This document shows, piece after piece, positions 507 to 29,320 of a stretch of DNA of 44,099 nt (positions are counted from its first letter, which is position 1; each line of letters opens with the position of its first letter). Source of the stretch: an uncultured Bacteroidales bacterium (GTDB lineage Bacteria; Bacteroidota; Bacteroidia; Bacteroidales; Bacteroidaceae); contig CACYOC010000020.1 in the NCBI GenBank assembly GCA_902775975.1, positions 1-44,099 on the forward strand. Reading direction: 5' to 3'. The notes beneath the pieces were generated by a model. It saw only the letters and a list, made by a program, of their open reading frames with translations. It was not told where the DNA came from and made no database searches. Both the position numbers and the translations under genes were made by a program.

Positions 507-1445
507 TTACTGTCCTGCTTCGTGAAGGAAGGACTGGACTTCATGGAAGTATTCGTCCTTATGGGTCAGGTAGGACTTTGCATGCTCTGCGCCTTCGGCA
601 ATCCACAGCTTCTTTCTTGAAGGCTTGGCCTCGTAAAGACGATAGACCATTGAGGTGGGAACGAAGGTGTCGCTACTGCCATGAATGAACAGCATCGGGT
701 GCTGGCAGTGCTGCACCCGCTCTATGGCGGAGGCGTCGTTGAAACTCCATCCGTTTTTTATCTTACACAACAGGTTGCTCGCATACAGCAACGGGAATGG
801 CGGCAGACCGAACTGATTCTTCAGCTCGCCTTGGAACTCGTCCCACGCACTGGTATAGCCACAATCGGCCACGAAATGGATGTCCTTGACGGCCTTTGGC
901 AACGGTTCTGCAGACAGCATCATGGTGGTGGCTGCTCCCATGGAGACGCCGTGAACCACCATCGTGTCGGTCTGGAATATCGTGAGCCAGTGCAACACGT
1001 CCAGCCTGTCGAGCCACCCCATCTGAATGTTTTCGCCTTCGCTCAGTCCGCTTGCATGCAGGTCGGGCATCACAACGTTATATCCCATCAGCTTTTCATA
1101 GAGCCGCGCCAGATACAGGAAGTCTATGCAGCAGTCGCGCCATCCATGAACTATCACAGCGGTCTTGTTGCTGCCCTTGTTCACGTAAAGTGCATGATGG
1201 CGCTCACCGGTAGGCATCGTCACGAAGGTATCGCGCAGCGCCTCCTTGCTCCTCAGGCTATCCACCCACGGTCGCATTTCAGGGTAAGTTTCAAACAGTC
1301 TCTGATAACATACTGCCGTATCGCTCCGGTTTTCCTCGGGAGCGAGTGCAAAGTCGAGCATATAGAAGCTGCCACCGACTATTGCCAAAACAACCACCGC
1401 GAGAATAGCCACGGCGACGAAAATCATTCTTTTTGTGTTAGCCAT
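507..1445 (-). CDS. Alpha/beta hydrolase, membrane-anchored or exported
   Basis: The 312-residue product has a hydrophobic N-terminal segment (about residues 7-30), consistent with a signal anchor, then an alpha/beta-hydrolase fold. Visible catalytic features are the oxyanion-loop HGW (100-102), the nucleophile elbow GVSMGA with Ser168, an acid in HGSSDTF (Asp259) and a final His in EGAEH (His288). It resembles serine-aminopeptidase/BAAT-like hydrolases often found in Bacteroidetes, but the substrate cannot be read from the sequence. Its start codon overlaps the end of the gene upstream of it (1438-1755) by 8 bp, so the two are probably translated from one mRNA. Confidence 0.85.
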   Translation of the reverse strand: MANTKRMIFVAVAILAVVVLAIVGGSFYMLDFALAPEENRSDTAVCYQRLFETYPEMRPWVDSLRSKEALRDTFVTMPTGERHHALYVNKGSNKTAVIVHGWRDCCIDFLYLARLYEKLMGYNVVMPDLHASGLSEGENIQMGWLDRLDVLHWLTIFQTDTMVVHGVSMGAATTMMLSAEPLPKAVKDIHFVADCGYTSAWDEFQGELKNQFGLPPFPLLYASNLLCKIKNGWSFNDASAIERVQHCQHPMLFIHGSSDTFVPTSMVYRLYEAKPSRKKLWIAEGAEHAKSYLTHKDEYFHEVQSFLHEAGQ

Positions 1446-1755
1446 TGTATCTGTAGTGTTTGCGTTGTTGTAGATAGTCCAGGTCTGCCTGATGCCTGTA
1501 TGCCTCTTGCTCGAAGCGAATCATGAAGTATGCCTTCTCCCAGTTCCGGTATTTACAGAACAGCAGGAACCACTCCACGCCATACCAGAGGAAGAAAGGC
1601 AGGTAGAGCAATTCCCGCTGTTGTGCGGCATGTATCTTTTCGTGGTTCAGCTCGACAGGCGACAGCGGTCTGACGGCACAGATGAGTCCGAACAGGCAGA
1701 TGGCAAAATAGTTCTTGCCCAGCAGTCCTTTTCTGATGCGATAGACCTTCTGCAT
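1438..1755 (-). CDS. Small membrane protein with HExxH motif, possible minimal metallopeptidase
   Basis: The 105-residue product has two hydrophobic stretches (about 15-30 and 50-67). Between them lies NHEKIHAAQQREL, with HExxH at residues 38-42. Further on, FEQEAY (81-86) provides glutamates that could act as a third zinc ligand in a gluzincin-like arrangement. The layout recalls very short HExxH proteases, though I cannot name the family. It overlaps the downstream hydrolase gene by 8 bp, suggesting a two-gene operon. A non-enzymatic membrane protein with a chance HExxH cannot be excluded. Confidence 0.6.
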   Translation of the reverse strand: MQKVYRIRKGLLGKNYFAICLFGLICAVRPLSPVELNHEKIHAAQQRELLYLPFFLWYGVEWFLLFCKYRNWEKAYFMIRFEQEAYRHQADLDYLQQRKHYRYNG

Positions 1756-1779
1756 ATTACCTAGGGAATGGTCATGGCA

Positions 1780-4242
1780 TTACTTCACGACTTTCTTTCC
1801 ATGAACGAGGTAGATGCCATGCTGTCTCATGGTGCTGACCTTACGACCCATGAGGTCGTAGATGTCGCCAGTAGCAGTCCGGGCGGCAGGCTGGACGGTA
1901 TGGATGGCAGTGGGAATATCGGAAATGCATTCATAGGCCATCGGATATTCGAAGAGACACTCTACTTCCCCTTTAACCAGTTCACCTACTGCCAGTCTGT
2001 AGCTCTGTCCCTTCACCAAGTTTGGGAAGGTGAAAGTGCCAAAGACAGGCTTCTCGTCTTTAAACTGACACTCCACTTTCATGTTGAAGGGGTCTTTAGG
2101 GTCAACGCTATAATCGTACTTTTCAAGTTCATTGTCGTATTGTTCAAGCATGATGTAGAGAGTCTTGGTGCAGGGAGCCTCGTCGGTAGTCGCCATCACA
2201 TACTGACCTTGCAGTGTGTTGTCGGTCAGCGGCTCGGGATCGTCTTCTTTTTCCTTTTGTTTCTCAGTGTCGATGTTCGTTACGCTGTAGCTGAGTGACG
2301 TTCCCGTAACGAGCACTTCGTCCTCACCCTCGCTGAGAAGATTGTACTCGCTGTTGTATTGCTCAACATCGTTGGTAAGGAGACCGATGTAGTGGGTTCC
2401 TATTGCTTCGGGAACGAAGGTGAGATAGAAGTCGCCCGACATACCCCTATCAATGCCCATGCCTGTGGCGTTGCATGCGGTGTATGCCTCACCGTCAGTG
2501 CTTGTCCATAGTACCGCAGCCCTGTTTTGTGAGTTAGAATTGTTGGTGGCGTTAAACTTCAGGGTGACCGTCTTATAGACCTTTGCTTCGCCGTCAACAG
2601 TCATGGAGTTGACTTTAGTGTCGCCTACCCTATTATGATCGTCGAAGCTGGGCCATGCCGTCAGCGTATTACCATCGAGATATAACAGTATGTTATAGGT
2701 CTCGCCCATGTAACAGACGTACCACTTGTCGGTATTCTTCTCGCCATGGCAGTCGCGGAACAGCCAATGTACCTCGTAGGTGCCGTCGGGAACGTCTTTG
2801 GGAATGGTGATGCTAAACTGCATGCGCTTTCTCTCGCCAGAGAGTATCGTGGCCTCAATCATCCTTATCTTGGGTTGTGCAAAGACGTACGATTTCTTCT
2901 CGCGGTCGTAGAGGTTCCACGCGATATCGTACTGTTTGTCCATATAGGGGGGTAATTCCCTGTCAAAGAGCACGCCCTGGATGAAGGCAGGAAAGTCTTC
3001 CGTCGCATTAGTACGCTTGAGGACTAACTGGTCCAGTTTGGTGTATTGCTTGTCCATCAGGTCTATTCCGTAAATGCCCACCTTGTTTACGCCATCGGCA
3101 GGATCAGGGTTAGCAGGCTTCTTAAATCCATATAGGAAGGAGGTGTCGAGATTGTATCCGAAGCTCACCTTCTCGCCTTTCTCCTCTGGATTGTCGCTGT
3201 TGAGGACAGTGAGCAAGAAATAGCCGTCACACTGTCCGCCCCATCCCCAGTTGACGTGGTAATAACCGTTCTTATATCCGTCAATGACAAAGGTGTGACC
3301 ACTCGTCTTAAAAGTCTTGGAGTCCATGGCTGATGCAGAGTAAATGACGGGGCGTCCTGCCTTCAGTTCGGTGTACAAGAAGTCCTCGTAATATTGATAG
3401 GTACAAGTGTTACGATAGAGATGACCTATCTCACTGTAGCCGAAATAGAGTCGTGCTGCCTCGCTGGTAGCGTTAATCCAGGCTTCTGAAGACTCAGAGG
3501 AATAAACCGTTCCCTGTGCATAGCCAGCATATTTCACCAGCTTTGCAACTTCGGTAAGGCCCTCAGACTGATCGTCCTTGCTGTATTTCTCGCCCATGAT
3601 GCTCCAGTTGAAGGACGTGGCAGGCAGCGCCTGCAGATGCTGTCTATACTCTCTGGCACCACCACTTTCATTATACATATCCTGTTCAGGAATGCCACGC
3701 GGCATCGCTCCTTCCGGATACTTCACCGTTGCCAGCACCTGTGCCAGCGCAATTGCTGGGCAGCCGGAGATAGACCGCTCGCCAGTCTTCTGGTCCATAG
3801 GCAGAAGCTTGTTGTAAGGTGCCGGCTGATCCCACTTGAAAGGAACGAGAGGCTTCACCTCTTCGTAGTTGGTGAGGGCTACCGTCTTAAGACTGCCATG
3901 GTTCTTCAGCGCTTGTATCTGCTGCTTGTAACTCTCAATCCACGCTTGTGCAGCGGGATTCACCTGCTGCTCGTCGAATGCGTTGCCGTCCGACCAGCCG
4001 AGCACAGGCGCTGCCTGGTCGTCAGCACTAACCACCACGAAGCCGCCGTTGCCATTGAAAACATAGAGTTCGTCACTCTCGTAGGCCATCTCTACGGAAC
4101 TGTTGGCAGAGCTGGCCCTGTTGGTTGCTTTCTGGGCAAAGAAGTCCTTGGCAATGTTCGCAGCCTTCTTCTTGCTGACGGGGTTTGCCATCAGCCCCAC
4201 GGTTAGCGTTAAAAGCGTAAGAATAGTAAAATGTCTCTTCAT
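1780..4242 (-). CDS. Streptopain-like C10 family cysteine peptidase, secreted
   Basis: The 820-residue product starts with a signal peptide (about residues 1-19). A propeptide-like region (about 22-140) contains GGFVVVSADDQ, as in Spi/C10 pro-domains. The peptidase domain has the nucleophile in SGCPAIALAQ (Cys161), the catalytic His in SGHTFVIDGY (His316), and the HVNWGWGG block (329-336), all typical of peptidase family C10 (streptopain, interpain, PrtT). Roughly 400 residues of beta-rich, unrecognised domains follow. The end resembles a T9SS-type sorting signal: IYDLMGRKV, then GIYLVHGKKVVK. It would act outside the cell or on its surface to degrade host or dietary protein. It is much longer than the roughly 400-residue streptopain zymogen because of the C-terminal extension. 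Confidence 0.9.
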   Translation of the reverse strand: MKRHFTILTLLTLTVGLMANPVSKKKAANIAKDFFAQKATNRASSANSSVEMAYESDELYVFNGNGGFVVVSADDQAAPVLGWSDGNAFDEQQVNPAAQAWIESYKQQIQALKNHGSLKTVALTNYEEVKPLVPFKWDQPAPYNKLLPMDQKTGERSISGCPAIALAQVLATVKYPEGAMPRGIPEQDMYNESGGAREYRQHLQALPATSFNWSIMGEKYSKDDQSEGLTEVAKLVKYAGYAQGTVYSSESSEAWINATSEAARLYFGYSEIGHLYRNTCTYQYYEDFLYTELKAGRPVIYSASAMDSKTFKTSGHTFVIDGYKNGYYHVNWGWGGQCDGYFLLTVLNSDNPEEKGEKVSFGYNLDTSFLYGFKKPANPDPADGVNKVGIYGIDLMDKQYTKLDQLVLKRTNATEDFPAFIQGVLFDRELPPYMDKQYDIAWNLYDREKKSYVFAQPKIRMIEATILSGERKRMQFSITIPKDVPDGTYEVHWLFRDCHGEKNTDKWYVCYMGETYNILLYLDGNTLTAWPSFDDHNRVGDTKVNSMTVDGEAKVYKTVTLKFNATNNSNSQNRAAVLWTSTDGEAYTACNATGMGIDRGMSGDFYLTFVPEAIGTHYIGLLTNDVEQYNSEYNLLSEGEDEVLVTGTSLSYSVTNIDTEKQKEKEDDPEPLTDNTLQGQYVMATTDEAPCTKTLYIMLEQYDNELEKYDYSVDPKDPFNMKVECQFKDEKPVFGTFTFPNLVKGQSYRLAVGELVKGEVECLFEYPMAYECISDIPTAIHTVQPAARTATGDIYDLMGRKVSTMRQHGIYLVHGKKVVK

Positions 4243-16510: not shown

Positions 16511-16640
16511 AACGATAAGTTATCGTGGCAATGGCCAACGCATGGCTTATCGGGGGCAAATTTAGGTAATAAATATATAAAATGCAAATTTTTTGCCTAC
16601 TTTTTTCATATTTTCCTGCTTTTTCGTCTGTCTTCATACT

Positions 16641-17702
16641 ATGAAACGCCTTTACAACCTTTGTTTTCTCATCGTCTGCATTCTGTTCTTTGGATGCGAG
16701 AAAAGCATTGTTCCTGAAAGCAATAACAGCAGTGGAATATCGCTTGTCGGTATTTCTGACAATGCGAAGCAGAATGCCCTGACCATCGCCGAAGCACAGC
16801 AACAGCCAACAGGAACCCCGATATGTGTAAAAGGTTTCATCGTCGCTTCCACCACCAAGAGTATGAGCAATGCAACCTACTCGTCTCCCTTCGCAGGAAG
16901 TACAGCCCTTGTCTTAGCCAGCAGACAGTCGAACGGCACCAACACCCAATTTGACAAAGAAGAACTCTTCCCCATCTGTCTGACCGATGCCAGCAAGGGT
17001 ATCAAAGAAGCTTACAATCTGGAAAGCAATCCGCAATACTACAACCAGTATGTATTTATAAGTGGTACGCGAGATACTTACCTGTCATTGTCCGGGCTTA
17101 AAAAGGTAAAAGCCATCGAGGTGGATCCTCACCACGTCGTCACCCAAGACGAGCAGCCTGATGCCGTCAAAGAAGGAGAGAGCATTGACAATTCGGAAGA
17201 GGAAGGTACTGACGAGGATGACGTTACTTACGGAGATGAGGACGACGAAGAAGAAGGAGAAGGCACTGACGAGGGTACTGGAAATGATGATACTGTTATG
17301 ACGGTGGCTGGAGCCATTGATGCACCTGAAAATACTAAATTAACTGTGAAAGGCTACATCGTTGGAGCAGCTATGGGCGATTATAATGGTAGTGTTTATT
17401 ATTGTTTTAACAAGTCAGAACTATCAAATAATGGAGAATCGTTTAAAGGTTATAAAACTGCTCTTATATTGGCAGACAATAAATATGATCCCGAACGTTC
17501 CTTTGAAAGTCAGTTTAATCTTGAGGATTCCATTAATGTTATGTTCGTAAAACTGGGCACAATAAAGGACAAGCTTAATCTTGTTGATCATAACGATTAC
17601 CATAACAAACTTATTCAAATAAAAGGCAACAAGGGATTTTACATAAATAAAAATATTGCTGCAATAAACGAAGTCAATAGTTACAAATTCATCACTCCTT
17701 AA
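16641..17702 (+). CDS. Lipoprotein with two OB-like (DUF6359-like) domains and an acidic linker
   Basis: The 353-residue product has a lipoprotein signal peptide ending in the lipobox LFFGC at about residue 19, so it is probably anchored at the outer membrane. Two similar modules follow. The first (about 35-165) starts ALTIAEAQQQPTGTPICVKG; the second (about 230-353) starts TVAGAIDAPENTKLTVKGY. Both read like the Bacteroidetes DUF6359 OB-fold-like domain, with ...VKGFIV/VKGYIV... cores. Between them lies a strongly acidic Glu/Asp-rich linker (about 180-228). No catalytic motif is seen. The second module is markedly more AT-rich than the first, suggesting a separate history. The start is the ATG giving MKRLYNLCF. 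Confidence 0.72.
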   Translation: MKRLYNLCFLIVCILFFGCEKSIVPESNNSSGISLVGISDNAKQNALTIAEAQQQPTGTPICVKGFIVASTTKSMSNATYSSPFAGSTALVLASRQSNGTNTQFDKEELFPICLTDASKGIKEAYNLESNPQYYNQYVFISGTRDTYLSLSGLKKVKAIEVDPHHVVTQDEQPDAVKEGESIDNSEEEGTDEDDVTYGDEDDEEEGEGTDEGTGNDDTVMTVAGAIDAPENTKLTVKGYIVGAAMGDYNGSVYYCFNKSELSNNGESFKGYKTALILADNKYDPERSFESQFNLEDSINVMFVKLGTIKDKLNLVDHNDYHNKLIQIKGNKGFYINKNIAAINEVNSYKFITP

Positions 17703-17786: not shown

Positions 17787-17818
17787 TTTGCAGATTCAAA
17801 GAATTATACGTACCTTTG
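17787..17818 (+). promoter_or_regulatory. Promoter of the trp operon
   Basis: TTTG (17787-17790) and TACCTTTG (17811-17818) are separated by 20 bp, a perfect fit to the Bacteroidetes -33/-7 consensus. The leader-peptide ATG lies 33 bp after the -7 box. Confidence 0.85.
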
Positions 17819-17851: not shown

Positions 17852-17902
17852 ATGAAAACAATGAATAATAATTGGTGGTGGCGTAACTCGAGATTCAAAT
17901 AG
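17852..17902 (+). CDS. trpL: trp leader peptide
   Basis: A 16-codon ORF reads MKTMNNNWWWRNSRFK and then TAG. The three consecutive Trp codons (UGG UGG UGG, 17873-17881) are the hallmark of a tryptophan attenuation leader: charged tRNA-Trp levels would decide whether the ribosome stalls there. It lies 33 bp after a consensus promoter and 123 bp before trpB. It matches the general description of Bacteroidetes 'Bacteroid-trp' leaders. Confidence 0.9.
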   Translation: MKTMNNNWWWRNSRFK

Positions 17903-17988
17903 TCGCGGGGTACGTAGCCATTATATATTGTTTTCTAAACAGACAAAAGAAGAGGCTCGTCGTTAACGCGACGGCCTCTTCTTCTGTT
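17902..17988 (+). promoter_or_regulatory. trp attenuator: alternative antiterminator and terminator hairpins
   Basis: Terminator form: AAGAAGAGGC (17947-17956) plus CGTCG (17958-17962) pair with CGACG (17969-17973) plus GCCTCTTCTT (17974-17983), extendable by AACAG/CTGTT. Antiterminator form: GTCGCG (17902-17907) pairs with CGCGAC (17967-17972), and ACG-t-AGCC (17912-17919) pairs with GGCTCGT (17954-17960), nested in one helix. The two forms share 17954-17960 and 17967-17972, so they exclude each other. A ribosome at the leader stop codon would cover 17902-17907 and favour termination; one stalled at the Trp codons would leave it free. The terminator lacks a strict U-tract but its 3' arm is U-rich. 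Confidence 0.85.
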
Positions 17989-18025: not shown

Positions 18026-19219
18026 ATGGGATATTTAGTAGATAACAAAGGCTTTTACGGAGAATTCGGCGGTGCTTACGTACCCGAGATTCTCTATGCT
18101 ACGGTAAAGAAATTGCAAGAAGAGTATTTGCCCATCATCGAGTCCAAGGAGTTTCAGGACGAGTACCGCGCCCTGTTGCGCGACTACGTCGGCAGACCAT
18201 CGCCCCTCTATCTGGCACAGCGCATGAGTGAGAAATACGGTTGCCAGCTGTATCTGAAGCGCGAAGATCTGAACCACACCGGTGCTCACAAAATTAACAA
18301 CACCATCGGTCAGATACTCCTGGCAAAGAAGATGGGTAAGAAACGCATCATCGCCGAGACGGGTGCCGGACAGCACGGTGTAGCGACAGCAACGGTCTGT
18401 GCGCTGATGAACATGCCCTGCGTCGTCTATCAGGGAGCTCTTGACGTGGAGCGACAGCACGTCAACGTGGAGCGTATGAAGATGTTAGGAGCCGAGGTTC
18501 GTCCCGTTAAGACTGGTAACTGGACACTGAAAGACGCCACGAACGAGGCTATCCGCGACTGGTGCTGTCATCCTGCCGACACCTTTTATATTATTGGAAG
18601 CACGGTAGGTCCACACCCCTACCCCGACATGGTGGCACGACTGCAAAGTATCATTTCCGAGGAAATCAAACAACAACTGCAGGAAAAAGTAGGTCGCGAC
18701 TATCCTGACTACCTCATGGCATGCGTCGGCGGTGGCAGCAATGCTGCTGGAACCATCTACCACTATATCGACGATGAGCGCGTGAAAATTGTTCTGGCAG
18801 AGGCCGGTGGACAGGGAGCAGACACAGGGCATACGGCAGCAACCATTCACGCCGGACGACTGGGTATCTTGCATGGGGCAAAGACGCTGGTCATGCAGAC
18901 CCCCGACGGACAGATTATCGAGGCGGAAAGTATCTCGGCAGGTCTCGACTATCCGGGCATCGGTCCCATGCATGCCAACCTTGCCGTGCAGCATCGCGCC
19001 ACGGTCTATAGCATCAACGATGATGAAGCCGTCAAGGCCGCTTTTGAAATGACACGTCTGGAGGGCATCATCCCTGCTTTGGAGAGTGCGCACGCTGTTG
19101 CCGCCCTATCGAAGATGACATTCAAGAAGGACAATGTGGTGGTGCTGACCGTCAGCGGTCGAGGCGACAAGGACATAGAGACTTACCTGAACTATCAAGA
19201 CCAACAAAAAGAACAATAA
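18026..19219 (+). CDS. trpB: Tryptophan synthase beta chain
   Basis: The 397-residue PLP enzyme condenses indole with serine to give tryptophan, in complex with TrpA. The PLP lysine lies in HTGAHKINN (Lys89), followed by ETGAGQHGVA, the phosphate-binding GGGSNAAG and ESAHAV. The length equals the family norm with the start at MGYLVDNKGF; an in-frame ATG 36 bp upstream would add an atypical polar extension and lies at the terminator edge. It is the first structural gene of the operon, unlike E. coli where trpB is near the end. Only 2 bp separate it from trpE. Confidence 0.97.
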   Translation: MGYLVDNKGFYGEFGGAYVPEILYATVKKLQEEYLPIIESKEFQDEYRALLRDYVGRPSPLYLAQRMSEKYGCQLYLKREDLNHTGAHKINNTIGQILLAKKMGKKRIIAETGAGQHGVATATVCALMNMPCVVYQGALDVERQHVNVERMKMLGAEVRPVKTGNWTLKDATNEAIRDWCCHPADTFYIIGSTVGPHPYPDMVARLQSIISEEIKQQLQEKVGRDYPDYLMACVGGGSNAAGTIYHYIDDERVKIVLAEAGGQGADTGHTAATIHAGRLGILHGAKTLVMQTPDGQIIEAESISAGLDYPGIGPMHANLAVQHRATVYSINDDEAVKAAFEMTRLEGIIPALESAHAVAALSKMTFKKDNVVVLTVSGRGDKDIETYLNYQDQQKEQ

Positions 19220-19221
19220 CA

Positions 19222-20613
19222 ATGAAGACATTTCAATATACCACCACGAGTCAGACCCTTCTGGCTGACCTCCATACGCCGGTAGGTGTCTATCTGCGGC
19301 TGCGCGACCTTTATCCACAGAGTGTGCTGATGGAATGCTGCGACTATCACGACAAGGACAGCGCCCGCTCCTTTATCGGCATCCACCCCATTGCCAGCGT
19401 TGCCATCAACCACGGCACGGCGACGATTCACTATCCGGACGGAACGACGCATCAAGAGCCGCTGTCAGAGCGTTTCAGCACGGCGCAAGCCATCCATGCA
19501 CTCACCGACAACATCCAAGTGGAGGGGGCTGACGCCTCAGTCTTCGGACTCTTCGGCTACACCTCATTCAATGCGGTGCGCTATTTCGAGAGCATTCCCG
19601 TAAAAGACGAGACACAGGAGAAGAACGACGCTCCCGACATTCTTTATATATTATATAAGGTCGTCATCGTCTTCGACCATCACAACAACCAACTGAAGGT
19701 GGTGTCACTTGCCGGCGACAACGAGATAACAGAGGTGCTGAAAGCCATGAACAAGGCCAACGTGAAGACCTACGACTTCCACCCCATAGGCGATGTCATA
19801 TCCACGCTGACCGACGAAGAACACAAGGCGAACATCCGCCGGGGCATCCAGCACTGTCTGCGCGGCGACGTGTTCCAGATTGTACTGTCACGCCGTTTCG
19901 TACAGCGCTACGAAGGCGACGACTTCAAACTCTACCGTACCCTTCGCAGCATCAATCCCTCACCCTACCTGTTCTATTTCGACTTCGGCGGTTTCCGCAT
20001 CTTCGGCAGCAGTCCCGAGACCCACTGCCGTATCGAAGGTAGGAAGGCATTCATAGACCCCATTGCCGGCACGACCAAGCGTACAGGCGATAAGGAGAAA
20101 GACCGTCAGGGAGCAGAGTTCCTGCGCAACGACCCCAAGGAGAATGCCGAGCACGTCATGCTGGTGGATTTGGCTCGCAACGACCTGAGCCGTAACTGTC
20201 ACGATGTCAACGTCGATTACTACAAGGATATACAGTACTACTCGCACGTCATCCATCTGGTGAGCAGGGTCAGCGGAGAACTGGATGCCGACAAAGACCC
20301 TATCCAGGCATTCATCGACACGTTCCCTGCCGGCACACTAAGCGGAGCACCCAAGGTGCGCGCCCTGCAACTCATCAGCGAATACGAGCCACACAACCGT
20401 GGCGCATACGGCGGATGCATCGGCATCATCGGACTGGACGGCAGTCTGAACCAGGCCATCACCATCCGCACCTTTGTAGCCCGCAATGGTGAGCTATGGT
20501 TTCAGGCCGGTGGCGGCATCGTTGCCAAGAGCAACGAAGACTACGAACTGCAGGAAGTCAACAACAAGTTAGGAGCGCTCCGCCGCGCCATTCTCCAAGC
20601 AGAAACCCTATAA
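19222..20613 (+). CDS. trpE: Anthranilate synthase component I
   Basis: The 463-residue chorismate-utilising subunit forms anthranilate using ammonia passed from TrpG. N-terminal residues LMECCDYHDKDSARSF fall at the position of the LLES feedback-inhibition motif, with Cys in place of the usual Ser. The C-terminal chorismate-binding domain shows DPIAGTTKRTG, DKEKDRQGAEFLRNDPKE, EHVMLVDLARND, DTFPAGTLSGAPKVRA and GAYGGCIG. It starts 2 bp after the trpB stop. A 9-bp repeat array begins exactly at its stop codon and fills the gap to trpG. Confidence 0.96.
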   Translation: MKTFQYTTTSQTLLADLHTPVGVYLRLRDLYPQSVLMECCDYHDKDSARSFIGIHPIASVAINHGTATIHYPDGTTHQEPLSERFSTAQAIHALTDNIQVEGADASVFGLFGYTSFNAVRYFESIPVKDETQEKNDAPDILYILYKVVIVFDHHNNQLKVVSLAGDNEITEVLKAMNKANVKTYDFHPIGDVISTLTDEEHKANIRRGIQHCLRGDVFQIVLSRRFVQRYEGDDFKLYRTLRSINPSPYLFYFDFGGFRIFGSSPETHCRIEGRKAFIDPIAGTTKRTGDKEKDRQGAEFLRNDPKENAEHVMLVDLARNDLSRNCHDVNVDYYKDIQYYSHVIHLVSRVSGELDADKDPIQAFIDTFPAGTLSGAPKVRALQLISEYEPHNRGAYGGCIGIIGLDGSLNQAITIRTFVARNGELWFQAGGGIVAKSNEDYELQEVNNKLGALRRAILQAETL

Positions 20614-20682
20614 GACCCATTAGACCTATAAGACCCATAAGACCCATAAGACCCATAAGACCCATTAAACCCATTCAACCCA
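20611..20682 (+). repeat. Eight 9-bp tandem repeats between trpE and trpG
   Basis: The unit TAAGACCCA or close variants is repeated eight times (20611-20682), starting at the TrpE stop codon and ending 2 bp before the trpG ATG. In the trpE frame the first and several later units begin with TAA, giving tandem stop codons. Confidence 0.85.
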
Positions 20683-20684
20683 TC

Positions 20685-21244
<560 letters not shown>

Positions 21245-21248
<4 letters not shown>

Positions 21249-22243
21249 AAGAGATTTTAGCAAAACTGCTCAACCACGAGATGCTGTCTCGTGAAGAAAT
21301 GAAGGCCGTACTCATCGGCATCACTCATAGTGAATATCCCACCGAGCAGATTACCGCCCTGCTGACCGCCCTGCAGATGCGCGGCGTCACCGTCGATGAA
21401 CTGTTAGGATTCCGCGATGGTATCTTAGAGACTGGCGTTCCCGTTCCCCTGAACTGCGACCGCTATATCGACGTCGTGGGAACGGGCGGCGACCGCAAGA
21501 ACACGTTTAACATCTCCACCACCTCATGTTTCGTCATTGCCGGCGCAGGGTATAAGGTGGCCAAACACGGCAACTATGCCGCCACCTCGACCAGCGGTGC
21601 ATCAAACGTCATCGCACAGCATGGTGTGAAGTTCACCGACAACATCGACCAGCTCAACCGCTGTCTCGACGAAGCAGGCATCGTCTATCTGCATGCACAG
21701 CTGTTTGCCAAGGCGATGAAGTTTGTAGGTCCCATCCGCAAGGCCCTGCAGTTTCCCACCATCTTCAACCTGTTGGGGCCCATCGTCAACCCTAGTCAAC
21801 CGCAATGTCAGCTGCTGGGTGTTGCCAATCTCGACCAGATGCGCCTGTACCACCAGGTATATCAGCGCATCGGCATCGACTATGGCATCGTCAACAGCAT
21901 TGACGGCTACGACGAGATATCGCTCACCGGCGACTTCAAAGTCACTACCAACAACTACGAGCGTTTGTTCTCTCCCGCCGACCTTGGCTTTGAGCGCGCT
22001 CTACCCGAAGAGTTGGTGGCAGGAGCCACGGAGGAAGAGGCAAAGGCTATCTTCGATGCCGTCTTGGAGAACAAGGCACTGCCGGCACAGAAGAACATTG
22101 TGATGGCAAACGCAGCCTTCGGTATTCAGGTGCTGGAGCGTGGCAAGAAGAGCATCGAAGAGTGTATCGCCATTGCCCGCGAGAGTATCGACAGCGGTGC
22201 TGCCCTGCAAACATTCAAGAAGTTCGTGGAACTGAACAGTTAA
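21245..22243 (+). CDS. trpD: Anthranilate phosphoribosyltransferase
   Basis: The 332-residue enzyme transfers phosphoribose from PRPP to anthranilate. Visible motifs are DVVGTGGDRKNTFNIST (PRPP-binding loop), AKHGNYAATSTSGASNVI, GPIRKALQFPTIFNLLGPIVNP, and DGYDEISLTGD. The length is typical. It overlaps trpG by 4 bp, and trpC follows 6 bp later. Confidence 0.96.
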
Positions 22244-22249
22244 TCGAAT

Positions 22250-23065
22250 ATGGACATCCTACAGGAAATAATCGCACACAAGTGCCAGGAGCTACCCGCC
22301 ATCCGTGCCGCATTAACTGTTGGCGGTGGTTCTGCCGCCGCCCCCACAGCTTCCTCCCCAAAGCCCTCGCTGCGGCAGGCGCTCCTCGACTCGCCGACGG
22401 GCATCATTGCAGAGTTCAAGCGTCGCTCGCCGTCGAAGGGTTGGATCAAGGAAGAAGGGCGTGCCGACATCATTCCGATGAGTTATCAGGAAAACGGGGC
22501 TGCCGCCGTGAGCATCCTTACCGACGAGCACTACTTCGGAGGCTCGGACGACTTCATCCGAACAGCGAGGCAAAGCGGTGTCACACTGCCCATCCTCTAC
22601 AAGAACTTCGTCATCGACGAGGCACAGCTGTATGCTGCCGTCCGTTGCGGAGCGTCTGCCGTACTGCTCATTGCCGCCTGTCTGACAAAACAGGAGTGTA
22701 AGACACTGTTGGACAAGGCACACGCATTAGGACTGGAAGTGCTGCTCGAGATGCACAGCGAGGAAGAACTGTCGTACGCCAAACTGGGACCCGACCTTTG
22801 CGGCATCAACAACCGCCACCTGGGTTCCTTTGTGACGGACGTCGAGACCTCGTTCCGACTCGCGGAAAGCCTTCGTTCCGTATGTGGCGATAGCATCGCC
22901 ACAAACCAGACCGTGCTGGTCAGCGAGAGCGGCATCTCGCATCCGGACACTGTCCGCGCACTGCGTCAAGCAGGTTTCCGAGGGTTCCTCATCGGCGAGA
23001 CGTTCATGAAAACCGCCAACCCCGGCACCGCCCTTCACGATTTCATCAACCAGCTAACCCATTAG
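22250..23065 (+). CDS. trpC: Indole-3-glycerol phosphate synthase
   Basis: The 271-residue TIM-barrel enzyme converts CdRP to indole-3-glycerol phosphate. Key segments are IIAEFKRRSPSKGWI with the catalytic Lys, SILTDEHYFGGSDDF, LPILYKNFVIDEAQLYAA, LEVLLEMHSEEEL, GINNRHLGSF and VSESGI. Residues about 23-38 (GGGSAAAPTASSPKPS) are a low-complexity stretch in the variable N-terminal region. It is a single-function TrpC, not the TrpC-TrpF fusion of enterics. A 9-bp-type repeat separates it from trpF. Confidence 0.95.
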   Translation: MDILQEIIAHKCQELPAIRAALTVGGGSAAAPTASSPKPSLRQALLDSPTGIIAEFKRRSPSKGWIKEEGRADIIPMSYQENGAAAVSILTDEHYFGGSDDFIRTARQSGVTLPILYKNFVIDEAQLYAAVRCGASAVLLIAACLTKQECKTLLDKAHALGLEVLLEMHSEEELSYAKLGPDLCGINNRHLGSFVTDVETSFRLAESLRSVCGDSIATNQTVLVSESGISHPDTVRALRQAGFRGFLIGETFMKTANPGTALHDFINQLTH

Positions 23066-23096
23066 CCCCATGAGTCCCATAAGTCCCATAAGCCCT
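23060..23096 (+). repeat. 9-bp repeats between trpC and trpF
   Basis: Four CATAAGTCC-like units run from the trpC stop codon to the trpF start. They are close to the TAAGACCCA units between trpE and trpG, read in a shifted phase. Confidence 0.75.
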
Positions 23097-23708
23097 ATGA
23101 TGATCAAGGTTTGTGGCATGCGCGATGCCGACAACATTCGTGCCGCAGAAGCCCTCGGCATCGACCTCATGGGGTTCATTTTCTGGCCGAAATCCAGTCG
23201 CTATGTCAGCGAGAAGCCTGCCTATCTGCCGACGCAATGCCGGCGCGTGGGAGTGTTCGTCGATGCGGCTGTTGACGACATCTGCCAACACGTGGAGGAC
23301 TATGCCCTTGACGTCATCCAGCTGCACGGCAAGGAGACACCCGCCTACATACAGGCATTACGTTCATTGTATGGCGATTCCATCACCATCATCAAAGCGT
23401 TCAACATTGCCACAGCAGAGGACTTGCAACAGACCGCGTGCTACGAGGGACAGGCCGACTACTTCCTCTTCGACACGAAGGCACAGCAGGTGGGAGGCAA
23501 CGGCACGAAGTTCGACTGGACGGTGCTCGACAGTTACGCTGGTGAGACGCCCTTCCTGCTTAGCGGCGGCATCGGTCCTGAAGATGCAGAACAAGTACGG
23601 GCATTCCACCATCCATGGTGCATCGGCATGGACCTCAACTCTCGTTTCGAGCTCGCACCAGGGCTCAAGGATATACAACAACTCAAAACATTCATCAAAG
23701 CACTATGA
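23097..23708 (+). CDS. trpF: Phosphoribosylanthranilate isomerase
   Basis: The 203-residue TIM-barrel enzyme performs the Amadori rearrangement of PRA to CdRP. The motifs are IKVCGMRDADNIRAA (catalytic Cys in KVCG), MGFIFWPKSSRYV, VIQLHGKE, FLFDTKAQQVGGNGTKFDW, LSGGI and the catalytic Asp in GMDLNSRFE. Two adjacent ATG codons are available (23097, 23100); upstream in-frame sequence is only repeat. It overlaps trpA by 4 bp. Confidence 0.95.
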   Translation: MMIKVCGMRDADNIRAAEALGIDLMGFIFWPKSSRYVSEKPAYLPTQCRRVGVFVDAAVDDICQHVEDYALDVIQLHGKETPAYIQALRSLYGDSITIIKAFNIATAEDLQQTACYEGQADYFLFDTKAQQVGGNGTKFDWTVLDSYAGETPFLLSGGIGPEDAEQVRAFHHPWCIGMDLNSRFELAPGLKDIQQLKTFIKAL

Positions 23709-24484
23709 ATAAGATCAATCAACTGTTCTCCGAGAACAAAAACCACAAGCTACTGTCATTGTATTTCTGTGCCGGAGCACCTACGCTGGACGGCACTGCC
23801 GACGTCATCCTGACGCTACAGCGAGGAGGCATCGACATGATAGAGGTAGGCATTCCCTTCAGCGACCCCATGGCCGACGGTCCCGTCATTCAGGACGCTG
23901 CCACCAAGGCACTGAGAAACGGCATGACCCTGCGCACGCTCTTCACACAACTGGCAGCTGTCAAGGAGCAAGTCAACATCCCGTTGGTGCTCATGGGCTA
24001 TCTGAACCCCATCATGCAGTACGGCATCGAGGCCTTCTGTCAGTCGTGTGCCGACAGTGGCGTCAGCGGAGTCATCATTCCCGACCTGCCCTTCGACGAC
24101 TACCTACAACTGGTCAAGCCCGTTGCCGACCGCTACGACCTGCGCGTCGTCATGCTCATCACTCCCGAGACTTCGGAGGAGCGCATCCGTTTCATCGACG
24201 AACATACCGACGGCTTCATCTACATGGTTTCGTCGGCAGCCGTCACGGGTACTCAGCAGTCGTTTGACGAACAGAAGCAGGCCTATTTCCGACGCATCAA
24301 CCAGATGCAGCTGCGCAATCCTCGCATGATAGGCTTCGGCATCTCGAACCGTCAGACGTTAGAGTCGGCCCAGCAAAATGCCGCAGGAGCCATCATCGGT
24401 TCTAAGTTCGTCACACTGTTGGACGAGGCGCACGGCAATGCCGAAGAAGCGCTGAACCGCCTATACCATAGCCTTTCGGAATAA
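23705..24484 (+). CDS. trpA: Tryptophan synthase alpha chain
   Basis: The 259-residue TIM-barrel subunit cleaves indole-3-glycerol phosphate to indole, which is channelled to TrpB. The catalytic Glu is in MIEVGIPFSDPMADGP, with the Asp of SDPMADGPVIQ. Further motifs are LVLMGYLNPIMQYG, GVIIPDLPFDDY and GFGISNRQT. The ATG overlaps the trpF stop. It closes the operon. No clear terminator follows; instead a 22-bp tandem-repeat array starts 22 bp after the stop. Confidence 0.96.
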   Translation: MNKINQLFSENKNHKLLSLYFCAGAPTLDGTADVILTLQRGGIDMIEVGIPFSDPMADGPVIQDAATKALRNGMTLRTLFTQLAAVKEQVNIPLVLMGYLNPIMQYGIEAFCQSCADSGVSGVIIPDLPFDDYLQLVKPVADRYDLRVVMLITPETSEERIRFIDEHTDGFIYMVSSAAVTGTQQSFDEQKQAYFRRINQMQLRNPRMIGFGISNRQTLESAQQNAAGAIIGSKFVTLLDEAHGNAEEALNRLYHSLSE

Positions 24485-24506: not shown

Positions 24507-24616
24507 AAAGTTACGTTTTGTCAGCGGTAAAGTTACGTTTTGTCGGCGGCAAAGTTACGTTTTGTCAGCGGTAAAGTTACGTTTTGTCAGCGGTAAAGTT
24601 ATGGTTTGTCAGCGAC
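24507..24616. repeat. Five tandem 22-bp repeats downstream of trpA
   Basis: Five head-to-tail copies start at 24507, 24529, 24551, 24573 and 24595. Each begins AAAGTTACGTTTTGTC and ends AGCGGT or a variant. Copies 1, 3 and 4 are identical, copy 2 differs at two positions, and copy 5 is degenerate. The first copy is preceded by GAC, giving GACAAA...TTTGTC, a small inverted repeat. Confidence 0.9.
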
Positions 24617-24672: not shown

Positions 24673-24709
24673 TCGCCAAAATGCAAACTATTACTAATTG
24701 ATTTTCAAG

Positions 24710-27352
24710 ATGAAGAAGCTATTTCTATTGCTGACATTATGCCTCGTCACCTTGGGTCTGCAGGCTCAAGGATGGAACGACCAGCAGTACCAGCAGATTG
24801 AACGGAGCATCCGTGTGCCACAGTTTACCGACCGTGACTTCCCTATTACGAAGTTTGGAGCCAAAGCTACCGCCACGATTGCCAAGAAAGGAATGTCAAC
24901 GAAAGACATTGCCGCCAAGAACCAGAAAGCCATTAACAAGGCCATTGAGAAGTGTTCGAAGAAGGGCGGCGGACGTGTCATCGTGCCTGCCGGACAGCAC
25001 TTCCTGACGGCAGCTATCGAGTTGAAGAGCCACGTCAACCTGGTTATCGAAGAGGGCGCTGTACTGGAGTTTGCCTTCGAACCAGAGCTCTACCCCATCG
25101 TTCCCACCCGTTGGGAAGGCGTCGATTGCTGGAACCTGTCACCCTGCATCTATGCCTATCAGCAGACGGACATCGCCATCACGGGTAAGGGAACCATCGA
25201 TGGCGGCGGTTCCAAAGAAACTTGGTGGCCGTGGGTCAGCAATGCCCGATTCGGTTTCAAGGAGGGCATGAAGGTGCATCAGTGGAACGGTGCCCGTCAG
25301 CGCCTGCTGAAGGCTGCTGAAGACGGCATCGACATGGACCAGCGACGCTTCGGTACGCAGGATGGTCTGCGTCCGCAGCTCATCAGTCCCAACCAGTGCG
25401 ACGGCGTTCTCATTGAGAATGTCACCCTACTGCGCTCTCCCTTCTGGGTGATTCATCCGCTATTGTGTAACGATGTCACCGTTCGTGGCGTACATGTCAA
25501 CAACGACGGTCCTAACGGCGACGGCTGCGACCCCGAGAGTTGCGACCGTGTCATGATAGAGAACTGTTTCTTCAACACCGGCGACGACTGTATTGCCATC
25601 AAGTCGGGACGTAACAACGACGGTCGCGAGGGCGGTCAGGGTCGCTTTGCCGGTCGTCCTTCGAAGAACATCATCATCCGCAACTGTGAAATGCAGAACG
25701 GTCACGGCGGCGTGGTCATAGGCTCAGAGATTTCCGGCGGTTGCCAGAATGTCTTTGCCCATGACTGCAAGATGGACTCTCCCAACCTGGACCGTGTGCT
25801 GCGCATCAAGACCAATTCGTGTCGCGGCGGTGTGATTGAGAACATCAACATGCGTAACGTTACCGTCGGACAGTGCAAGGAGGCGGTGCTGAAAATCAAT
25901 ACCGACTACGAGCCGCGCGAGGTGTGCTGCCGTGGTTTCAACCCCACCGTCCGCAACGTATGGATGGAGAACGTGACGTGTCAGAAGTCGAAGTACGGCG
26001 TGATGATTGTCGGCATGCCCAACGACTGTCAGGTGTATGACATCGATGTCAAGAACTGTCAGTTCAACGGTGTGGCAGCAGGCAACTCCATGACCGGTCA
26101 GTACCGTGACGTACGCTTTGACAACCTGCAGGTGAACGGCTCCGTAGTACTGCTACAAAAACCCTACAAACACTATTCCGAGTGGCTCACCTATTCTGAG
26201 ATGAAACGCACGCCGAAGTCGTTCATGCTCGACTTTGCCAAGAAACCCAAGTGGAGCTACGTCATGGGCATCGAACTGGAAGCCATGCTCGACACCTATC
26301 TGAAGTATGGCGGTGAGGACATTCGCCGCTACTGTCAGGAATATACCGACACGATGATTCTGAACGACGGCAGCATCCAAGGCTATAAATTGGAGGACTA
26401 CAACCTGGACAACATCCGCACCGGACACTTCGTTGCCCGCATGTATCAGCAGTGGCCCGAAGCCAAGAACCTGAAAGCCATGCAACTCATGATGCGTCAG
26501 CTGAAGAACCAGCCCCGTACCGATGTTGACAAGGTGTATTGGCATAAGGCCATCTACTCCTATCAGGTGTGGCTCGACGGCATCTTCATGGGACTGCCGT
26601 TCTATACACTCACAGCCCGCGACCTGCTGACCAAGAAGGAGGCACAGAAGATATACGACGATGCCGTCAACCAAATCAGCATCACCTATCAGCGCACCTT
26701 CGACCCCGTGACGGGTCTGAACCGTCATGCATACGACGAGACGCGTGAGATGTTCTGGGCAGATAAGCAGACAGGTCTGTCACAACACTGCTGGGGACGT
26801 GCCCAAGGCTGGTACTCCATGGCACTCATCGAACTGTTGGACGCCCTGCCTGAGAACTATAAACGCCGCAGTGAACTGATTGCCTTGTTAGAAAAAGACC
26901 TGGACGCCATCATCAAGTGGCAGGACAAGCAGACCGGACTATGGTATCAGGTGATGGACTCACCAGAGCGTGAAGGAAACTATCTGGAATCTACCTGCTC
27001 CTCGATGTTTGCCTACGTGCTGCTGAAGGCTTACCGCATGGGCTATCTCGGCGAGAAATATCGCGATGCAGGCATCAAAGCCTACAAGGGTATCATCAAG
27101 AACTTCATCAGGGTCAATCCCGACAAGACCATCTCACTGACCCGCTGCTGTGAGGTTGCCGGTCTGGGTCCGGGACTCAGCGACAAGGTGCGGAAAGCCG
27201 CTCCGAAGGTGAAGGAAAACCGTCGCCGCGACGGCAGCTATGCCTACTACCTCTCCGAACCCATCCGCGATAACGATGCCAAGGGCGTAGGTCCCTTCAT
27301 CTGGGCTTCATTAGAAATGGAGGCATTAGGATATACTACGGAAAATGAGTAA
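24710..27352 (+). CDS. GH28-GH105 fusion: polygalacturonase plus unsaturated galacturonyl hydrolase
   Basis: The 880-residue product has a signal peptide (residues 1-19). A GH28 right-handed beta-helix (about 40-480) shows NGDGCDP (Asp271), the NTGDDC pair (Asp292/293), GHGG with His332, and RIKTN (from 365). Then comes an alpha/alpha-barrel GH105 domain (about 485-880) with WLDGIFMG (likely catalytic Asp623) and SQHCWGRAQGWY. Together they would hydrolyse polygalacturonate and remove unsaturated uronates produced by pectate lyase. The start is the ATG giving MKKLFLLLTLC; an earlier TTG is less likely. The PL1 lyase follows, supporting a pectin role. Both domains look intact. Confidence 0.92.
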   Translation: MKKLFLLLTLCLVTLGLQAQGWNDQQYQQIERSIRVPQFTDRDFPITKFGAKATATIAKKGMSTKDIAAKNQKAINKAIEKCSKKGGGRVIVPAGQHFLTAAIELKSHVNLVIEEGAVLEFAFEPELYPIVPTRWEGVDCWNLSPCIYAYQQTDIAITGKGTIDGGGSKETWWPWVSNARFGFKEGMKVHQWNGARQRLLKAAEDGIDMDQRRFGTQDGLRPQLISPNQCDGVLIENVTLLRSPFWVIHPLLCNDVTVRGVHVNNDGPNGDGCDPESCDRVMIENCFFNTGDDCIAIKSGRNNDGREGGQGRFAGRPSKNIIIRNCEMQNGHGGVVIGSEISGGCQNVFAHDCKMDSPNLDRVLRIKTNSCRGGVIENINMRNVTVGQCKEAVLKINTDYEPREVCCRGFNPTVRNVWMENVTCQKSKYGVMIVGMPNDCQVYDIDVKNCQFNGVAAGNSMTGQYRDVRFDNLQVNGSVVLLQKPYKHYSEWLTYSEMKRTPKSFMLDFAKKPKWSYVMGIELEAMLDTYLKYGGEDIRRYCQEYTDTMILNDGSIQGYKLEDYNLDNIRTGHFVARMYQQWPEAKNLKAMQLMMRQLKNQPRTDVDKVYWHKAIYSYQVWLDGIFMGLPFYTLTARDLLTKKEAQKIYDDAVNQISITYQRTFDPVTGLNRHAYDETREMFWADKQTGLSQHCWGRAQGWYSMALIELLDALPENYKRRSELIALLEKDLDAIIKWQDKQTGLWYQVMDSPEREGNYLESTCSSMFAYVLLKAYRMGYLGEKYRDAGIKAYKGIIKNFIRVNPDKTISLTRCCEVAGLGPGLSDKVRKAAPKVKENRRRDGSYAYYLSEPIRDNDAKGVGPFIWASLEMEALGYTTENE

Positions 27353-27406
27353 TGAGAAATGAGTAATGAGAAATTGAGATAATGAGAAATTGAGATAATG
27401 AGAATT
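27353..27406. repeat. AATGAGAAAT-type repeats between the pectinase genes
   Basis: The whole 54-bp spacer consists of GAGTAATGAGAAAT and GAGATAATGAGAAATT-like units, ending directly at the start codon of the PL1 gene. It resembles the array at 142-195. Confidence 0.7.
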
Positions 27407-29320
27407 ATGAAGAAAACATTTTTATCCATAGCCACTGCGCTGCTGTCCATGACAGCCGTAGCACAGAGCACTTACGACCTGAATGCGCCATTCGGTTTCT
27501 GCACCCGCTCGTCGCGCACCGATGCCACCAGCACCTTCGATTGTGCGGGTGGCGGAATCACTGACTACAGTCAGTATGAAAGCTTTAGTGGGTCTAAAAT
27601 CACTCTGAAGTCAACTGGGCAGGACATGAAAGCCACTATTCAGAACGCCATCAAGCAGAATAGCGTTGTCGTACTGGATGGTTCGGACGGCGACTTCATC
27701 GTATCGGAGAACATCGGAATAACCAACTCCAACAGAACCGTACTGGGTATCAACGGTGCCCGCATCTGCACCAAGTGGCAGGTGACAAGCGAACTGAAAC
27801 AGAAACTCATCGATGCCGGTGTGCCAAGCATGAGCACCAGTGGAGGCGGCGGTACACTGCCCAACGGACAGAAGGTCAGTGAGGAAGCTGAATACAACAC
27901 GCGAAAAATCATCATAGAGATGACGGGTGACAACAACGAGAACTACCGTAAGTCGGGCGTCATGTCGTTGTCAGGATGTTCAAACGTCATCGTCCGCAAT
28001 ATCGTCTTCCAAGGTCCCGGCTCTATCGACGTCGGTGGCAACGACCTTATCTCTGCTACGGGAGCCAAACACTGCTGGATAGACCACTGCGCCTTCATGG
28101 ATGGCATGGATGGCAACTTCGACATCACCCAGAAAGCAGACTTCCACACGGTGAGCTGGTGTGTCTTCAAATACACAGAACGCTCATTCATGCACCAGAA
28201 CACCAACCTCATCGGCAGCAGCGACAGCGAGTCAGCAGGTTATCTGAACACGACCTTTGCGTTCAACTGGTGGGCTCCCGGCTGTAATCAGCGTATGCCA
28301 ATGGGACGCGTCGGCAAGATACACATGCTGAACAACTACTATAGCTGCGGAAGCGCAAGCCTCTGCATGAACCCCCGCAAGAACTCGGAGTTCCTCGTTG
28401 AAGGCAACTACTTCGCCTCTAACGTGAGGAACTGCTACAAGTCTGACAATGCTACGGCTGTGACATGGGCAGACAACAACGTCATTGCAAACACTTCCGT
28501 CACCAAGCCTACTTCTTTCGGCACAACGGTCGTAGTGCCTTACACCTACAGCGTAACAGCAGCAAATGCCGTTCCTGACGCTGTTCAGAACTATGCGGGT
28601 GCCACACTGCCTTGGGGTACTGGTGGTGGCGAGGAGACCGGCACCAAGGGTAGCATCTTCTGGCCGATGTCAAGCAATACGAATGCCGAGGTTTCAGAAG
28701 GTATTGCCGAATTTATCGAATCAACCAGCGTAACCAACGGAAGCAATCTCGTATTGAATGGCAATGGTACCTACAACAACATTCGCTTCACGCTCTACCA
28801 GGCACAAAGCATCCAGACGGAAGCTGCTGATGACAATGCCGTTATCTTTTCGATGACCACTAAGAGTGGCTATAAGTTCAAGGCATCAAGCGTTGAACTC
28901 TATGCCTGCAAGGTGGGTACGAATAACGGTATCATGGATGTAGCATGGAAAGATGCCGGCGGCACGACCTCTCTTTTGCAGGCTGTATCGCCTAACCGCA
29001 ACGATAATGAACACGGGTATTTCTCCTACTATACCAAAGAGATTAGCGCATCATCCACTGCCACAGAAGGCACTTGCTCGTTGATTGTCAACATCTATAA
29101 TGTCGGTGCATTAAAAGACGGTGCATTACAGAAGAAAGACTTAGGTCTGGCTCAAATTCTCATCAAGGGAACTGTCACCGACAGTGCCACTGGCATCTCT
29201 ACGCCAGTTGTTATGAGCATGCCGATGGACAACACCTATTATAATATAAAGGGACAGCGCGTAGCAAACCCCACTAAGGGGCTGTACATTGTCAATGGAA
29301 AAAAAGTAATTATCAAATAA
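27407..29320 (+). CDS. PL1 family pectate lyase, secreted
   Basis: The 637-residue product has a signal peptide (about 1-19). The parallel beta-helix lyase domain (about 25-400) contains the PL1 signature CWIDHCAFMDGMDGNFDI, MPMGRVGKIHMLNNYY with the catalytic Arg region, and a calcium-binding Asp context. A C-terminal region of about 230 residues with a beta-rich module follows, then YYNIKGQRV...GLYIVNGKKVIIK, a T9SS-like sorting end. It would cleave polygalacturonate outside the cell by beta-elimination, giving unsaturated oligomers for the adjacent GH105 domain. The start is the ATG giving MKKTFLSIATA. Confidence 0.92.
   Translation: MKKTFLSIATALLSMTAVAQSTYDLNAPFGFCTRSSRTDATSTFDCAGGGITDYSQYESFSGSKITLKSTGQDMKATIQNAIKQNSVVVLDGSDGDFIVSENIGITNSNRTVLGINGARICTKWQVTSELKQKLIDAGVPSMSTSGGGGTLPNGQKVSEEAEYNTRKIIIEMTGDNNENYRKSGVMSLSGCSNVIVRNIVFQGPGSIDVGGNDLISATGAKHCWIDHCAFMDGMDGNFDITQKADFHTVSWCVFKYTERSFMHQNTNLIGSSDSESAGYLNTTFAFNWWAPGCNQRMPMGRVGKIHMLNNYYSCGSASLCMNPRKNSEFLVEGNYFASNVRNCYKSDNATAVTWADNNVIANTSVTKPTSFGTTVVVPYTYSVTAANAVPDAVQNYAGATLPWGTGGGEETGTKGSIFWPMSSNTNAEVSEGIAEFIESTSVTNGSNLVLNGNGTYNNIRFTLYQAQSIQTEAADDNAVIFSMTTKSGYKFKASSVELYACKVGTNNGIMDVAWKDAGGTTSLLQAVSPNRNDNEHGYFSYYTKEISASSTATEGTCSLIVNIYNVGALKDGALQKKDLGLAQILIKGTVTDSATGISTPVVMSMPMDNTYYNIKGQRVANPTKGLYIVNGKKVIIK

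Follow-up and report, generated by a model that had tools for sequence, protein, structure and literature searches.

A probable ribosome-mediated attenuator with a two-helix antiterminator ahead of the trp operon in an uncultured Bacteroidales bacterium

The leader directly ahead of the trp operon in an uncultured Bacteroidales bacterium (assembly GCA_902775975.1, contig CACYOC010000020.1; the whole analysed stretch of 44,099 nucleotides is called the window here) is, in our assessment, very likely a ribosome-mediated transcription attenuator of that operon and very probably a working one. Computation established its parts, their positions, their covariation among relatives and the folding preference of its truncated transcripts.

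Results

The leader and its operon

All leader elements lie on the plus strand. A TTTG element (17787–17790) and TACCTTTG (17811–17818), both read from the sequence and from homologous leaders, are spaced by 20 nt and fit the consensus −33/−7 promoter type of Bacteroidota; a sigma-70 scan did not flag 17787–17818 as a promoter. The initial annotation had called a consensus promoter here, and the call held, TAnnTTTG with TTG or TTTG 5′ of it being found in 52 of 58 homologous leaders. The 16-codon ORF that it had described (17852–17902, encoding MKTMNNNWWWRNSRFK, with the stop codon UAG at 17900–17902) was likewise found, with three adjacent Trp codons (17873–17881) that lie within strand 1 and would serve as the sensor. 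Runs of three Trp codons were present in 53 of the 58 collected leaders, of two in 3 and of four in 2, in a set chosen for runs of two to four.

Folding and covariation placed hairpin 1:2, the putative anti-antiterminator, over the Trp codons (17873–17923), with a core in which 17887–17890 pair with 17906–17909 and 17892–17895 with 17901–17904. Strand 2 (17902–17919) is used by this hairpin and is also the 5′ strand of the antiterminator, in which, by RNAduplex and covariation, 17912–17919 pair with 17954–17960 inside the terminator 5′ arm, and 17902–17907 pair with 17967–17972, the last loop base and the top of the terminator 3′ arm. The RNAduplex optimum in the window (−17.6 kcal/mol) consisted of the same two helices as first annotated plus one isolated pair between them, and so draws on both terminator arms as had been claimed; the 5′ strand does start at the leader stop, with the refinement that the UAG overlaps only its first base. 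The terminator hairpin (17947–17983, loop 17964–17967) was recovered at its annotated position by pattern scan, folding and covariation, and here the refinement concerns the U-rich tract (17974–17987), which is partly paired in the stem and, after a clear hairpin, is broken by a C (CUCUUCUUCUGUU). By folding and shared bases, hairpin 1:2, antiterminator and terminator are mutually exclusive in the window leader, whose folding stability (z = −8.17) was equalled by 0 of 200 shuffles.

The operon follows directly in the order trpBEGDCFA, on the plus strand, and ends at 24484. NCBIfam cut-offs were passed by trpB (18026–19219; TIGR00263), trpG (20685–21248; TIGR00566, with Pfam PF00117), trpD (21245–22243; TIGR01245), trpA (23705–24484, its start picked within a longer ORF; TIGR00262) and, just, trpC (22250–23065; NF001377). 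The best NCBIfam matches of trpE (19222–20613; TIGR00564, with Pfam PF00425 and PF04715) and trpF (23070–23708; NF002295, phosphoribosylanthranilate isomerase) were below cut-off. Tandem repeats of 9 bp of the ACCCATAAG type lie directly 5′ of trpG (20605–20683) and around the trpF start (23058–23095), and a 22-bp unit is repeated 4.9 times (93% matches) just 3′ of trpA (24507–24614); other, long direct repeats lie between leader hairpin and trpB in three relatives (L024, L025 and L028). A DUF6359 gene (16593–17702) lies upstream of the leader, pectin-type genes (24698–29320; a GH28 and GH88 domain protein and a pectate lyase, by Pfam) lie directly past the operon, and a C10-family peptidase with a Spi-type inhibitor domain (Pfam PF01640 and PF13734) is encoded at 1780–4242 on the minus strand.

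The hairpin might instead mask the trpB start, attenuating translation while transcription continues, and the interrupted U-tract, together with tails 3′ of the stem that begin with A in 14 of 58 leaders, would fit such masking. We consider it very unlikely, given that the stem ends 42 nt from the trpB start, that the long direct repeats part hairpin from trpB in the three relatives, that the same leader stands 5′ of trpB, trpD, trpF or trpE in different loci, and that 50 of the 58 tails have at least five T in 12 nt. We read the hairpin as a transcription terminator.

Covariation among genus leaders

Covariation across homologous leaders, which the initial annotation had named as a check on its helices, supported all three in 57 aligned genus leaders (alignment A1). 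The starting set was 96 loci with a close TrpB gene, the window included; a pattern of a TGG run, TCG[CT]G and G[CT]C retained 58 of them, one being a duplicate. The 38 loci that failed the pattern were left out of the counts; at least six of them have a visible leader (L015, L017, L020, L025, L027 and L069), and in many the leader lies farther upstream, 5′ of trpD. By title, Prevotella, Prevotellaceae and Bacteroidales MAGs account for most of the 80 named relatives; rumen and other animal samples were the source of many, and the top TrpB identity was 94%, so the window probably comes from an uncultured Prevotella of such a habitat. A cultured relative, Prevotella communis (L170), has the leader too. 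The window row of A1 is shifted by one column in the outer 3′ arm because the window is without one base there.

Paired cells made up 98.2% of hairpin 1:2, 98.6% of the terminator and 87.0% of the antiterminator (best slid registers 54.9%, 57.6% and 44.8%, respectively), and 0 of 500 shuffles came as high for each helix; the shuffles ignore relatedness, which the slid registers preserve. Both sides had changed in 7 of 11 terminator pairs (0/500 shuffles) and in 6 of 13 antiterminator pairs (1/500), the antiterminator also having 18 further pair types (16/500). Hairpin 1:2 contained 26 cells changed on both sides (0/500), and its three pairs changed on both sides were no excess over chance (229/500 shuffles as high). 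Antiterminator pairs 30–116, 36–110, 37–109, 38–106 and 41–105 were broken in 15–21 of the 57 leaders.

One strand-2 base (column 34) pairs both with the Trp-codon hairpin (column 18) and with the terminator 3′ side (column 112), and it can match both partners by standard pairs in 57 of 57 leaders because only four 18-34-112 combinations exist: G-C-G (22), A-U-A (18), A-U-G (16) and G-U-A (1). From the alignment, column 112 may also pair with column 105 inside the terminator, possibly a further constraint on it. The best TrpB tree had 65 rows, the window and 64 of the 80 named relatives (overlapping the 57), and required 8 or more changes of strand-2 type, 4 of these forced by well-supported branches; column 18 tracked column 34 in 4 of 4 independent pairs, for which p = 0.125 is the minimum with four pairs and not significant, and column 112 tracked it in a mean of 1.7 of 4, never the opposite way. 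By leader sequence, 13 of the 57 belong to type A, the window's, 35 to type B and 9 to type C; the terminator top of type C starts GCG, and in the two type C leaders inspected the best duplex was in a shifted register.

The encoded peptide recurs as well, WWWRNSR being its commonest reading (WWWRNSRF in 18 and WWWRNSRL in 8 of 57), and a trans-acting Trp leader peptide is reported elsewhere, peTrpL of Sinorhizobium meliloti (PMC7298713, in the excerpted text). That the conserved product here is a peptide of this kind, with the RNA structure secondary, strikes us as exceedingly improbable, as the conserved codons also make up part of strand 1, TCG and TCA alternate as the Ser codon in step with strand 2, and the C-terminal end varies by many residues. 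We retain attenuation by competing RNA helices as the reading of the conserved leader.

Folding of truncated transcripts

Truncated transcripts were folded at equilibrium with assumed ribosome footprints and without kinetics. With the window RNA out to 17972–17976, a ribosome stalled at the Trp codons left the 5′ half of the antiterminator at 0.83–0.99 and the terminator at 0.00–0.15, while the terminator stood at 0.81–0.95 for a ribosome placed on the stop codon and at 0.90–0.98 with no ribosome; the competing-helix geometry proposed at first thus switched as expected. With RNA out to 17980 or more, the terminator was dominant in every ribosome state, and in the complete transcript it was favoured at equilibrium under a stalled ribosome (−30.8 vs −19.9 kcal/mol), the same preference being seen in every ribosome state. 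Because the terminator prevails in all states from 17980 on, the choice between on and off would need to be kinetic.

Among the 57 leaders, the terminator top exceeded 0.5 in 52 with no ribosome, in 10 with a stalled ribosome and in 56 with the ribosome at the stop. Stalling removed it relative to both other states in 46 of the 57, and the 11 leaders without a switch in this simple model included five of the nine of type C. Binding between strand 2 and the terminator of the same leader was −17.6 ± 1.6 kcal/mol, compared with −9.5 ± 3.2 kcal/mol for shuffled sequences (57 leaders). In 34 of the leaders none of 50 shuffles bound as strongly, and in only 29 of the 57 was the binding better than to any terminator of a different sequence type.

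In 55 of 58 leaders the stop codon starts −8 to +12 nt from strand 2 (−3 nt in the window), so a finishing ribosome would be placed to cover strand 2. The outliers lie at −24, +24 and +25 nt; the first of them (L080:208–321, minus strand) has the leader MFRNNIYWW with the stop right after the Trp codons, 24 nt 5′ of strand 2, and has either decayed or works differently.

From these data we infer the order of events, termination at the site, stalling and control by tryptophan as follows. With ample charged tRNA-Trp, the ribosome would pass the WWW codons and reach the stop at 17900, where, on the assumed footprint, it would cover strand 2 from its 5′ end up to about 17914; since that part would be covered, the terminator would form and transcription would end 5′ of trpB. 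With charged tRNA-Trp scarce, the ribosome would stall on the Trp codons and block hairpin 1:2, and the freed strand 2 would clamp the terminator with two helices, pairing first through its 3′ part with the terminator 5′ arm and then through its 5′ part with the loop edge and 3′ arm upon their emergence, so that the terminator would be kept open and the operon transcribed. With no translation, hairpin 1:2 would form and the terminator would prevail.

Spread within the genus

A query with the window TrpB gave matches in 111 of 120 genus genomes (its own included), close in 94 and distant only in 17. Of the 93 genus genomes that have a close trpB, 90 gave a strong match to the leader model from this analysis (best E of 4.5e-13 or lower), a count that is partly by construction because many of those genomes supplied leaders to the model; of the 26 that have none, 0 did (119 genomes), an absence that is not by construction. 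Weak matches only were found in three genomes with a close trpB (G071, G093 and G114), directly 5′ of trpB in G093 and G114, and weak matches of 1e-5 to 6e-7 in 5 of the 26 without (G017, G039, G057, G075 and G084). Other matches in the window's own genome reached at most 24.3 bits, one of them (22.5 bits) being the opposite strand of the same site.

Across 20 further genus stretches, the gene behind the leader was trpD in 11 cases, trpF in one (L253) and a TrpB-like gene in three, and one leader lay at a contig end (L243); neither leader nor trp gene was found in four fetched for weak matches (L261 and L262 of G020, L249 of G111 and L250 of G071). The contig-end case is a second strong copy in G083 and was excluded from the tally of second sites. 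In three genus genomes, a second trp leader copy lies 5′ of a gene for a TrpB-like PLP enzyme: near 474 in L244, where the gene (622–1989, plus strand) scores above the NCBIfam cut-off for two TrpB-like families; near 4157 in L246 (gene 2645–4006, minus strand); and at about 3835–3700 on the minus strand in L247 (G047), where Trp-Cys-Trp replaces the three Trp codons.

This tie of the leader to trp genes bears on a simpler account, that the hairpin terminates the upstream gene at 16593–17702, that the trp operon starts past it and that the leader ORF is there by chance. A terminator-like site is detectable at the leader by pattern alone, and the three weak model matches inspected elsewhere in the window's genome, rejected as further leaders (L100, L102 and L103), are gene-end hairpins without a leader ORF. 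We nevertheless give this account almost no chance of being right, as a conserved promoter and a Trp-rich ORF separate that gene from the hairpin, the leader goes with trp genes and the antiterminator covaries; attenuation of the trp operon remains our reading.

Rfam comparison and spread in the phylum

The whole window had no match to Rfam at the gathering score, the T-box leader included if it is in Rfam. Below threshold, the trp-related rows were RF01692 and RF00513 only, the latter (Trp_leader) at 14.4 bits against a gathering score of 41. The relation to Bacteroid-trp (RF01692) suggested by the initial annotation was borne out in that this was the best family match, but at 40 bits against a cut-off of 49 it stayed sub-threshold. 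RF01692 reached its cut-off in 3 of 40 leader-bearing genus loci (L014, L018 and L104) and missed the other 37; the match of L104 had already emerged from the phylum scan. Because the cut-off is passed by L014 and L018, both of which A1 aligns with the window, the window leader is best read as homologous to RF01692 through such intermediates.

Of 395 genomes across the phylum, 41 had an RF01692 match at E ≤ 0.001, 37 of them above cut-off; the window's genome was not among the 41. Our leader model matched 198 of 395 genomes at E ≤ 0.01, which overstates the spread because most weak matches were not followed. A wider sample of 36 loci from 34 genomes (one in the genus), picked from the best leader-model and RF01692 matches, had trpE as the first trp gene past the leader in 29 loci, trpB in 6 and trpD in 1. 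In 31 of the 36 loci, all of them among the 35 outside the genus, strand 2 surpassed 190 or more of 200 mononucleotide shuffles in binding to the terminator, a threshold subject to noise, since L106 and L133, with an identical leader, scored 13 and 6 of 200 and fell on opposite sides; the row of L159 is uninformative, only the terminator tip having been taken. The long antiterminator helix reads GUCGUG(A)/(U)CACGAC in most of the 36 loci, and GGGAUG/CAUCCC in L109 and L114 (two genomes of family f12), where the sequence differs and the pairing is retained.

Discussion

The kind of attenuator described here is already known. In the E. coli trp leader, strand 2 pairs with the terminator 5′ arm, and two Trp codons are adjacent. 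The window leader shares with it the Trp codons and the competing 1:2, 2:3 and 3:4 hairpins, but its strand 2 extends the pairing to the loop edge and the top of the 3′ arm, and its Trp codons number three. By their description, actinobacterial amino-acid attenuators (PMC1262725 and PMC11857589, in the excerpted texts) are likewise cases of leader-peptide attenuation outside Proteobacteria. The Bacteroid-trp leader (Rfam RF01692; Weinberg et al. 2010, PMC2864571, in the excerpted text) resembles the window leader in lying before trp genes and in having an ORF with Trp codons and a hairpin over them; its model differs in that the structure line has one hairpin only, over the Trp codons, and in stopping in the terminator 5′ arm, which is left unpaired, with no terminator or antiterminator helix.

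Excerpts of PMC7366714, whose main text contains neither 'trp' nor 'tryptophan', remark on short ORFs, recalling attenuation leader peptides, within some of the long 5′ UTRs of B. thetaiotaomicron. On trp attenuation in Bacteroidota, the searched literature, in the texts available, contained only a tabulated computed RNA motif and this remark on short ORFs; the supplement of Weinberg et al. 2010 may say more. As far as that literature goes, the antiterminator with its double constraint and the leader before a TrpB-like gene in three genomes are new, and the gap of the Rfam model for this genus goes beyond what was known.

The antiterminator pairing seems to be common to related bacteria. That Bacteroidia share the full arrangement, namely a clamp on the terminator 5′ arm and on the loop edge and 3′ arm, a strand under pressure from two partners and a stop codon set against it, is absent from the literature searched, and we put it forward tentatively, at slightly less than an even chance.

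The Rfam model can be extended to include the terminator and antiterminator, and with the pairs given, the mechanism is testable by compensatory mutation in laboratory Bacteroides or Flavobacterium. Translation in Bacteroidota mostly begins without Shine-Dalgarno pairing, and the pairs bear on transcription-translation coupling in this phylum. If Bacteroidia do share the full arrangement, ribosome and polymerase would move in step in this phylum, and in some genomes the same leader would also control a TrpB-like enzyme.
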